The notes beneath the pieces are model-generated. The model did no database searches. It worked only from the letters and a program-made list of their open reading frames with translations, and was not told the origin of the DNA. Positions 48,810 to 52,248 of a stretch of 52,248 nt of DNA are shown one piece after another. The stretch comes from Myxococcaceae bacterium (GTDB lineage: Bacteria > Myxococcota > Myxococcia > Myxococcales > Myxococcaceae): the NCBI GenBank assembly GCA_016793095.1, contig JAEUJQ010000040.1, positions 1 to 52,248 of the forward strand, given 5' to 3'. Made by a program: the position numbers and the translations under genes. The number at the start of each line of letters is the position of its first letter. Position 1 is the first letter of the stretch.

Positions 48810-50579
48810 TCAGAGCGAGAGCAGCCCCGTCGCCCTCGGCAAGACGAGCGATTCGCCCACCGCCGGCAACTCCAACGGGCCCAGCACGCCGTCATCCCAG
48901 CGCGCCAGCGTGAAGGTGGCGCCGTCGGGGAGCTGATCGAGTGTCACCAGCAGCGTCTTCGGCCGCGCCTCGCCATCGAGCGACGTCACCTCGATCGTCG
49001 CGCGCGCGAGCTTCACCCGGTAGCCGATGGGCACGGGCACGTCACTGGAGCGCACGAGCTGCTCGAAGACGGACTGGAGCATCTGGCCGTCGGTCACCTC
49101 GACCTCGACCTCGCGCTCGGAGCGGCGCGTCAGCCGGTGCGCCGAGCTTGCGAACGAGACGGTGACCCACGACTTCGCGGCTGGCTTGCCGTGGAGTTGC
49201 CGGATCATCGACGTGTAGAGGACAGCAGAGGGATCGGGCGCGGCGAACACCAGCACGTGACCCGCGAGCGCCTCGTCGCCCAGCGCGGTCTCCATCGCCA
49301 TCGAGCGCTGAAGAGACGAGCCCACGCCGTAGACTCCGGCATTCACGGGCCACATGACGGCGCACTGGGCGACCGCGGGCACCACGAGGGCGCGCGTGGC
49401 CCAGCGCACTGCGCGGCCTGGTGCGCGCCACCCATGCACCAGCACCAACGCGATGATGGCCGAGGCGAAGACCGAGGGCACCAGCAAGAGCCGGTTGAGC
49501 GGGAACGTGGCCAGCACCGGCGCCAGCGACGCACCGAAGGCCGCGCCCAGCCAACGCAGCGCGCGGCGCTCGTCGTCGGTGAAGTCAGGCCAGAGCGCCC
49601 GCAGCAGCCACGACACCGCCGCGAGCGCCACCACACCGGCTGCCACGAGGGCCGGCCGGAGCGCCACCTTGATGAGCCAGAGGTCGGCGGTGGTCCCGAG
49701 GAACTGCGCCCCCGCCAGCGCGAGGGCCTTCGGCGGTGCGCGGGTGAGGAAGGCGAACGGCTCGGCCAGCGGGTCGTTGTAGATCTCCGAGCCCGCCGCG
49801 CCCGAGCCCGTCAGCTTGTAGACGACGAGGTAGGTGACGCCCACGAGCGTCATGGGCGCCAGCGCGAGCAACCGCCGACGCCACCCGCCAGGCCCGAGGG
49901 TCACCTCCCAGGCGCCGATGGTGAGCAGCGCCCCCACCGCCGACTCTCCCCCGGCGAGCCCCAGGGCGGCGGCCCCCATCGACAGGGGAAGGCCCCACCA
50001 CCAGCGCTCCTCTCGCCAGCGCAGATGCGCGAGCAGCGCGAGGAGCGCGAACACCGCCGAGACGAGCGCGTTGCGGTTGGCGATCCACCCCGCCACCACC
50101 GCGTGCGCGTCGTCGATGGCGAAGAGGATCATCGCCAGCGGCGCGGCGGTCGAGGTGCGGAGCGCTCGCGCGAGCACCGGGTTCGCGACGGCGATGAGCG
50201 CGACGTACCAGGCGATGGAGTGCAGGTGCAGCAGCACCGCGTTGCCGCCGACGAGGCCGTGCTCGACGTTGGCGATGAGGGCGGTGAGCGGCCTCAGAAA
50301 CGAGAACTTGAGCGTGGGCAGCGTCCACCAGGGGAACGGGCCGTTCTCGATGAGCGGCCTGGCCACCGCGGGGTCTCCGTTCACGAAGGTGAAGAGGTTC
50401 CACCGGTCTCCCGCGGCGAAGCCCGGCAGGCCCCGCAAGAGCGCCTGGTGCAGGAAGTCGTCGGCGAAGAAGCCGGTGAAGCAGAACGGCAGCGCGACGA
50501 GCGCGCCCAGCACGAGCGCGAACCGCGGAGCGGCCGATCCGAAGACGAGACGCCGCCACCCGACGGTCGTGTCTGCCAC
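48810..50579 (-). CDS. Polytopic GT-C-like membrane glycosyltransferase, retron-linked
   Basis: The 589-residue protein has about ten transmembrane helices and a soluble C-terminal part (about 435-589). The first extracytoplasmic loop carries FFADDFLHQ (Asp40, Asp41), the acidic pair typical of GT-C glycosyltransferases using lipid-linked sugars (PMT/ArnT/GT39-like). Donor and acceptor are unknown. The GTG start at 50579 comes one base after the retron RT stop, so translation is probably coupled. No other gene intervenes. Whether it works with the retron or just shares the transcript cannot be told from sequence. Confidence 0.75.
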   Translation of the reverse strand: MADTTVGWRRLVFGSAAPRFALVLGALVALPFCFTGFFADDFLHQALLRGLPGFAAGDRWNLFTFVNGDPAVARPLIENGPFPWWTLPTLKFSFLRPLTALIANVEHGLVGGNAVLLHLHSIAWYVALIAVANPVLARALRTSTAAPLAMILFAIDDAHAVVAGWIANRNALVSAVFALLALLAHLRWREERWWWGLPLSMGAAALGLAGGESAVGALLTIGAWEVTLGPGGWRRRLLALAPMTLVGVTYLVVYKLTGSGAAGSEIYNDPLAEPFAFLTRAPPKALALAGAQFLGTTADLWLIKVALRPALVAAGVVALAAVSWLLRALWPDFTDDERRALRWLGAAFGASLAPVLATFPLNRLLLVPSVFASAIIALVLVHGWRAPGRAVRWATRALVVPAVAQCAVMWPVNAGVYGVGSSLQRSMAMETALGDEALAGHVLVFAAPDPSAVLYTSMIRQLHGKPAAKSWVTVSFASSAHRLTRRSEREVEVEVTDGQMLQSVFEQLVRSSDVPVPIGYRVKLARATIEVTSLDGEARPKTLLVTLDQLPDGATFTLARWDDGVLGPLELPAVGESLVLPRATGLLSL

Positions 50580-50580
50580 T

Positions 50581-51987
50581 TCACGCTCGCGGGAGCGCAG
50601 CGACCTGCTCGAGCAGCTTCGAGCCCTTCTTCGGGTCGCTCATGTAGACCCAGGCGGCCAGGCCCTGCAGGTGCGCGTGCGACTCACCCTCGCGGTACGG
50701 CTTGCCCTTCTGCCGGTTGTGGATGGCTGCGCGCAGCCGTCGCAGCACGTCACGCGAGACCCGCGCCGACGCCACCTGCGGCCCTGCGGGGTTGATGGTG
50801 AGCCCCGTCACCCGCTGCGCGGCGCCACGCCGCAGCACCTGCGTCTTCTTCGCGTGCAGCGTGAAACCCTCGCTCTTGAGCACGTCCTTCGTCTTCTCGA
50901 CGAGGATGCCCAGCGCCAGCCGCTTCCGCTCCGGTGTCTTCTTGAACGAGAACGTCAGGTCGTCGGCGTAGCGCGTGTACGTGCAGCCCAGCGCCCGCGC
51001 GAGCGCCGACAGCCGCCGGTCCATGCGCAGGCAGAGCGCGTTGGTGATGGCCGGAGACGTCGGCGCGCCCTGCGGCAGGCAGCGCGGCCCCGTCGCCACG
51101 TGGAGGGTCTGCTCCCTGAACTCGACCAGCTGGCGCGGCGCCTCGGTGCACAGCAGCGCGAGCAGCGTGGCGACCGGCTCGGTGACGCCGGCCTTGCGCA
51201 AGAGGCCCTTCACGCGCTGCCAGGTGACGGTGGGGAAGAAGTCCTTCACGTCGAGCTTCACCACCACGTCGGCGCCGACGTGGGCGAGCGCGTTGGTGAG
51301 CACGCTCCGCGCGGGCAGGAAGCCGTGGGCGGCCGCGTGCACGGGCAGCTTCTCGAAGTACTGCTCGAGCGCCCACCGCTGCAGCGCCTTCAGCTTCGGC
51401 ATCGGGGCGGTGATGGTGCGCTCGCCGCCGGTGCGCTTGGGCACCTTCCACGAGTGGTAGTGCGAGCCGGTGTCGACCTCGCGGTGGAAGGTGAGCCAAC
51501 GCAGCTCGGACAGCGACAGCTCCATCGCGGCCGCCAGCTCGTTGGCCGTCTCCCATGGCGGCAAGCCGTTCTGCTCGGCGCGCTGGGCGCGGTCCTTCAG
51601 GTCGAAGTCATCGGCGTCCTTCAGCTCGTCCCAGTGAACCGTATTGCCGAGGTACCCGATGGTGCCGAAGCGCCGGGCCTCGTTGGCGAGCGCCTTCAGC
51701 TTCTTGCGCTCGGCGCGCTCGGCGCCCTTCTTCTCCTTGAACGTCTTCTTCTCGTCCTCGTTGGCGGGGGCGGCCGCGTCGGGGGTGTGGCCCGCCTCGA
51801 TGAGCTTCGCGCGCACCCAGCCGTCGACGCCGCCCTTGCTCTCGATCTCGAGCCAGCGGGCCTCGGCGGCGGTGCGCTGCTTCTCACGCTCGGCGCGCTC
51901 GGCCTCCGTGAGGGGCTTGCGGGGAGGCGCCCGGTTCGTCAGCGCGGGCGGCGCCGCGGGCACGTGGTCGTCGATGCGGTTCGTCAC
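50581..51987 (-). CDS. Retron reverse transcriptase (myxobacterial Mx162-like)
   Basis: The 468-residue protein is a retron-type reverse transcriptase, which makes msDNA from the adjacent non-coding RNA. Retron signatures are NALAH (NAxxH, 232-236) and VTG (393-395). Catalytic motifs are KLDVKDFFPTV (Asp246), PQGAPTSP (305-312) and YADD (340-343). It is longer than Ec86-type RTs (about 320 residues) because of a charged, Lys/Glu/Ala-rich N-terminal extension of about 170 residues, as I recall for Mx162/Sa163 enzymes. GTG 51987 is preceded by AGGAGGG five bases upstream. The retron RNA lies just upstream at 52074-52248. Confidence 0.95.
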   Translation of the reverse strand: MTNRIDDHVPAAPPALTNRAPPRKPLTEAERAEREKQRTAAEARWLEIESKGGVDGWVRAKLIEAGHTPDAAAPANEDEKKTFKEKKGAERAERKKLKALANEARRFGTIGYLGNTVHWDELKDADDFDLKDRAQRAEQNGLPPWETANELAAAMELSLSELRWLTFHREVDTGSHYHSWKVPKRTGGERTITAPMPKLKALQRWALEQYFEKLPVHAAAHGFLPARSVLTNALAHVGADVVVKLDVKDFFPTVTWQRVKGLLRKAGVTEPVATLLALLCTEAPRQLVEFREQTLHVATGPRCLPQGAPTSPAITNALCLRMDRRLSALARALGCTYTRYADDLTFSFKKTPERKRLALGILVEKTKDVLKSEGFTLHAKKTQVLRRGAAQRVTGLTINPAGPQVASARVSRDVLRRLRAAIHNRQKGKPYREGESHAHLQGLAAWVYMSDPKKGSKLLEQVAALPRA

Positions 51988-51992
51988 GACTT

Positions 51993-51999
51993 CCCTCCT
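51993..51999 (-). promoter_or_regulatory. Ribosome binding site of the retron RT
   Basis: AGGAGGG on the minus strand, five bases before the GTG at 51987, supports that GTG as the translation start. It is one of the clearest Shine-Dalgarno sequences in the window. Confidence 0.75.
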
Positions 52000-52073
52000 G
52001 CTCGACCGCCTGGACCGCTCCTGTCACGTCAGTGAGTGAGGTGCCGAAAGCACCACCTTCTCTCCTGGGGCTC

Positions 52074-52200
52074 GGTAGCCTCACCGGCTCTCCCGGCAGA
52101 GGGGCCTCCTCCGCGTGGGAGAAACTGCGTTCGCGCAGTTGTCTCAGCTCTCCCACGCGGAGGAGGCCCCTCTGCCGAGGAGAGCCAAGAACAGGCTACC
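52074..52200. repeat. Long inverted repeat forming the msd hairpin
   Basis: The outer arms at 52074-52081 and 52193-52200 pair perfectly. Unpaired stretches 52082-52085 and 52187-52192 separate them from the main stem of 37 pairs with one bulged base (52178). An eight-base one-sided bulge (52141-52148) separates the main stem from the apical TTCG hairpin. All pairs were checked base by base. Confidence 0.97.
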
Positions 52201-52227
52201 TAGCGGCGGATGTCGGACGAAACTCCA

Positions 52228-52246
52228 GAGCGGCGCAACGCCGCTC
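52228..52246 (-). other. msr stem-loop with three-base loop
   Basis: GAGCGGCG (52228-52235) pairs with CGCCGCTC (52239-52246) around a CAA loop, which reads UUG in the retron RNA on the minus strand. Retron RTs recognise short msr stem-loops with small U-rich loops, so this is the likely RT recognition element. It lies 27 bases upstream of the msd outer stem. Confidence 0.7.
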
Positions 52247-52248
52247 CT

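Follow-up and report, generated by a model that had tools for sequence, protein, structure and literature searches.

A probable type XIII retron with two tandem non-coding RNA units, and scattered msd pieces, in a Myxococcaceae genome

Among myxobacterial retrons, Mx162 is described in excerpts of PMC6868368 as having a multicopy single-stranded DNA (msDNA) of 162 nt, a CAGC branch motif, and an 8-base overlap. The same excerpts relate, after Lampson and Rice (1997) and Lampson et al. (2002), the occurrence of msDNA-like repeats and a partial msDNA copy in Nannocystis exedens. Here, we describe a retron at one edge of a 52,248-nt stretch of DNA from a Myxococcaceae bacterium (GenBank assembly GCA_016793095.1, contig JAEUJQ010000040.1, positions 1 to 52,248), which we call the window. 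The source genome is labeled G000, the contig making up the window is C36, and other G and L numbers are compared genomes and loci. The presence of a retron at the window edge, noted in a first-pass annotation, is confirmed. Taken as a whole, the evidence makes it probable that this is a type XIII retron belonging with the myxobacterial Mx162/Sa163 retrons and having two non-coding RNA (ncRNA) units for one reverse transcriptase (RT), with dispersed pieces elsewhere that are likeliest to be captured msDNA. Because of its RNA structure, the covariation, the matches to type XIII models in PADLOC, and the family-wide distribution of its ncRNA anchor, we regard the core as an already known kind of retron. 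The unusual features in comparison with known retrons are the two msr-msd units per RT and the degraded msd pieces around the chromosome.

The RT gene lies on the minus strand at positions 50581..51987, runs from a GTG start codon at 51987 to a stop codon at 50581, and encodes a protein of 468 amino acids with an N-terminal extension. Its identification as a retron RT comes from the open reading frame, profile and structure matches, and motifs. NALAH begins at residue 232, YADD at 340, and VTG at 393, which are the residues at which the first-pass annotation had read the NAxxH, YADD, and VTG of a minus-strand RT. Its placement of this protein with the retron RTs was also borne out, by profile scores rather than by a tree. 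RT_XIII was the best PADLOC model (1.9e-149, the next model reaching 9.7e-90), and this score would put the RT in the XIII clade; the closest solved structures are the retron RTs Ec86, Ec67, and Ec78. The top NCBIfam model was retron_St85_RT at 215.5 bits, under its curated cut-off of 235. Orthologues of the RT are present throughout the family Myxococcaceae.

Upstream of the RT gene, also on the minus strand, is part of an ncRNA unit that we call unit 2. The long msd hairpin and UUG-loop msr stem that had been proposed there were located by folding and covariation at 52074..52200 and 52228..52246, respectively. The hairpin has the base GGTAGCC/GGCTACC, a long variable stem, and a conserved loop, and the msr stem is the second of the unit, the first being on a neighboring contig, C66. 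Folding and covariation likewise identified the a2 segment at 52023..52047, the partner of which, a1, is on C66. The predicted msDNA template of 161 nt (52048..52208) has two predicted ends, one directly before a2 and the other set 8 nt ahead of the hairpin, following the overlap reported for Mx162. Predicted in this way, msDNA length is 160-162 nt in 42 of 42 aligned rows, a value only partly independent of Mx162 because the far end is placed by the published 8-base overlap (PMC6868368, in excerpt). A search of the window with Rfam gave no family at gathering score.

To examine the structure across relatives, we inspected the region upstream of the RT in 64 genomes, 63 of which yielded at least one complete unit, for a total of 68 units. 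G021 gave none because its RT contig begins inside the RT gene. Removal of near-identical units left 42, and the covariation alignment consists of 41 of these (L032 was left out as incomplete) together with the part-unit of the window. The ncRNA in the window folds with a z-score of -10.3, and none of 200 shuffles was equally stable. Over the 42 aligned units, 94.2% of cells are paired in the whole structure versus 39.3 to 47.5% when partners are slid, changes on both sides occur in 44 of 79 pairs, and none of 500 shuffles attained any of five measures. In the a1/a2 helix, both partners have changed in 15 of 26 pairs, and 86.9% of cells are paired (41 units with letters there); the corresponding values for the msd helix are 27 of 34 pairs and 96.4% (42 units). 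The middle of the msd stem varies freely in sequence while its pairing is kept.

The window spans contig C36 from end to end, so the a1 segment truly lies beyond it. The final 116 bases of C66 are the same as the first 116 bases of the minus strand of the window (52133..52248, minus strand), and upstream of this stretch C66 carries a1, a further ncRNA unit (unit 1), and SWIM and HEAT/ARM genes. The a1 complementary to a2 that the first-pass annotation expected past 52248 is thus present on C66, and the helix that it forms with a2 covaries. C66 also supplies the CAGC of unit 2, found directly after a1 and containing the putative branching guanosine. The join of C66 to C36 is supported because the genes on C66 adjoin the RT upstream in L006, L008, and L009, where HEAT, SWIM, and RT occur in the same order with HEAT and SWIM directly upstream of the RT. 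Contigs break in or next to ncRNA units in several assemblies (G000:C36, G000:C66, G011:C57, G011:C21, G004:C24, G004:C38, and G092:C339).

Two upstream proteins on C66, of 914 and 2351 amino acids, both match the PADLOC model HEAT-ARM_XIII (4e-211 and 0), and a third, of 610 amino acids, matches SWIM_XIII (4.7e-144). The HEAT/ARM and SWIM partner genes of a type XIII retron are thus present, on a contig whose connection to the window is based on overlap and synteny. Three Psychrobacter loci and one other Myxococcota locus likewise have a SWIM gene ahead of the RT, with 27-31% identity; within the flanks compared, no match to the HEAT gene was found in the three Psychrobacter loci or in L025. 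RTs 39-43% identical to that of the window occur in the Psychrobacter (Gammaproteobacteria) loci L010-L024, L026, and L027. Of 147 genomes in the class, 66 have the ncRNA anchor: 65 of the 96 in the family, and one from the same order, in which the match has two mismatches. One base past the RT stop begins a probable membrane protein of 589 amino acids (window positions 48810-50579) for which no Pfam family was found. We rejected it as an operon member, given this result and its position beside the RT in only two of the five closest loci (L005 and L006).

Unit 1, complete and directly upstream on C66, has its own a1/a2 and is 90-91% identical to unit 2 by BLAST. The middle of its msd stem differs from that of unit 2 yet is fully paired. 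Two units precede one RT in 5 of the 64 genomes surveyed (G000, G095, G010, G040, and G042), and in all but G000 both units lie within a single contig. G011 probably has two units as well because its contig after SWIM ends in a unit and its RT contig starts in what appears to be the a2 of that unit. In G091 there is one unit, which adjoins the SWIM gene. Our literature search, from which the original papers on type XIII and Nannocystis were excepted, met no tandem retron ncRNAs, and we do not claim their absence.

Degraded pieces of the msd occur in at least 20 further places in G000 at expectation values (E) up to 0.01. A reversed query matched nothing in G000, and across seven genomes its one match was marginal (E 0.0085). 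The counts are minimum values because 40 candidates were scored from each of three dispersed-piece lists, which had 51, 62, and 58 first-look candidates. One 18-mer from the a2-side flank has 12 copies in G000, two of them within the retron; the other 95 genomes of the family have 0 to 3 copies apiece. Off-locus matches to it in those genomes number 19, in 18 genomes with at most two each; a low background exists, as the backward control also gave six matches in 96 genomes. Among sister genomes, we found three pieces in G095, two in G091, one in G093, and none in G092, G090, or G094. The genus of G010 contributed one piece, a 32-nt exact copy of msd loop in G009 (L226, G009:C626:23943-23974; no full-length orthologue of the window RT was found in G009), and one marginal match (G011:C123). 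When 24 pieces (C77 included) were judged by an approximate GC-frame rule, 19 fell outside coding sequence, versus 7 of 200 positions drawn at random from the window. G000 has three further RTs, L003 (G000:C71:51612-52547), L004, and L001. The first of these is 51% identical to the window RT and has a different possible msr-msd upstream. It was rejected as the source of the pieces because nothing in its 3.6-kb locus matched the units significantly (lowest E 0.02).

We scored flanks, loop, and msr in 23 pieces, leaving out C77:23144, C11:121261, G091:C446, and G009:C626. The a2-side flank, which is the 5' side of msDNA, scored above the maximum of 300 shuffles in 14 pieces and the loop in 10, versus none for either the other flank or the msr. 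The copies are confined to the reverse-transcribed part. If the sides were equally likely, the two-sided chance of 14 out of 14 falling on one side is about 0.0001 with the pieces taken as independent, which they may not be. Two pieces (C60:13121 and C6:127874) carry the stem of unit 1 and others that of unit 2, and two pieces in G095 carry that genome's own stem change. The one-sided flank and the resident-specific stems fit capture of msDNA 5' halves.

The two units could be redundant copies that add dosage, with the stem sequence irrelevant, and we consider this a strong contender that falls a little short of probable. Most genomes have a single unit, and the mid-stem varies with compensation even among close relatives, as expected if the duplex alone matters. 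What argues against dosage is that GATC occurs at one fixed offset in the msd stem of 4 of the 68 units, each being the first unit of a tandem locus (G000, G095, G010, and G040), and in no other unit. This argument is weakened by a possible common descent of three of the four loci and by the absence of GATC from the first unit of G042. Phage Dam can act as a retron trigger, and the GATC is a hint that methylation might be sensed through the first stem. That unit 2 of G000 is an assembly artefact, the retron actually having one unit, would suit the G000 assembly, in which the units are at the ends of two contigs, both broken within the repeat. However, on C66 a complete unit 1 is followed by the start of another unit, and four relatives have both units inside single contigs, making this reading very improbable.

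Capture from msDNA appears to be the likeliest origin of the scattered pieces, but several observations weigh against our overall explanation. The msDNA product is predicted from sequence alone, and the C66-C36 junction is known from the 116-base overlap plus synteny. G093 and G009 hold a piece, yet no full-length RT orthologue was found there. The one copy tested for an empty site, which was the best, gave no clean one: five relatives have its upstream gene with no element next to it, and the downstream side is rearranged. The loop is inverted relative to plain complementary DNA (cDNA) in most loop-bearing G000 pieces, and in cDNA sense in two G095 pieces; we conjecture that such an inversion would result from self-primed fill-in together with opening at the loop. 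Of 9 readable pieces, 7 (from G000, G095, G091, and G093) have TCGCC at a position where every aligned unit would give TAGCC. This recurrent change (L064, L075, L076, L199, L211, L214, and L215, in four species) suggests descent from a common master copy. Such descent, to which the inverted loop in G000 also points, would be expected if the pieces were an ordinary palindromic repeat, similar to repetitive extragenic palindromes or miniature inverted-repeat transposable elements, copied as DNA from one master with no msDNA capture. A tandem pair of pieces in G091 is also in favor of this. We nonetheless think it unlikely because the retron ncRNA occurs across the family but clear pieces are concentrated in one genus, because the stems of pieces follow the resident retron, unit 1 or unit 2, and because none of the pieces read was an intact symmetric element. 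A master copy accounts for TCGCC better than repeated capture does and leaves the species-specific stems unexplained; both might be accommodated if msDNA had overwritten old copies.

We propose the following model. The locus, split across two contigs, would have the order HEAT/ARM, HEAT/ARM, SWIM, ncRNA unit 1, unit 2, RT. Each unit folds by its own a1/a2 pairing; priming would take place at the G of CAGC, and the one RT would make two msDNAs of about 160-161 nt that differ in their stems. As in the tripartite design of other retrons (PMC12548924, in excerpt), the RT-msDNA complex may hold the HEAT/ARM and SWIM proteins in check until disturbed by a phage, the two stems serving as two phage baits. 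This would make the locus a probable anti-phage defence device that produces small DNA-RNA hybrids. The pieces that match the 5' msDNA half, consisting of a2-side flank, arm, and loop, lie in intergenic DNA of G000, with fewer in its sisters, and may have arisen by capture from msDNA and insertion. A bolder and more tentative reading, which we doubt somewhat more than we credit, is that a natural retron writes msDNA into its chromosome, hairpin 5' halves, perhaps self-primed and loop-opened, being joined repeatedly into intergenic DNA, while one RT makes two msDNAs whose fast-changing stems are separate baits. One RT with two different templates would mean that more than one sensor can be housed in a single retron, and would provide a natural two-template RT for DNA production.

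The retron resembles Retron-Mxa1 (Mx162) and Retron-Sau1 (Sa163), as described in excerpts of PMC6868368, in its CAGC, N-terminally extended RT, and vertical inheritance in myxobacteria. The msDNA of that group is about 162-163 nt, and the length predicted here, 160-162 nt, owes its far end to the Mx162 overlap. The likeness of layout to this type, first put forward from the window itself, is upheld indirectly by the branch motif, the RT extension, and the family-wide orthologues, and is drawn from described features rather than record sequences. The retron differs in the two tandem ncRNA units of G000. The same difference separates it from the type XIII retrons of PADLOC-DB, to which it is otherwise similar in strong matches to RT_XIII, HEAT-ARM_XIII, and SWIM_XIII. 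Nannocystis, in the same excerpts, has chromosomal msDNA-like copies with no RT nearby, for which retrotransposition was proposed. Unlike Nex1, which is described there as having msr plus msd repeats, the scored G000 pieces lack msr and have the a2-side flank only. The Nannocystis reports raised the question of whether msDNA returns to the chromosome, and G000 is another lineage in which this can be tested directly because it has many pieces, a one-sided signature, and an intact source retron.
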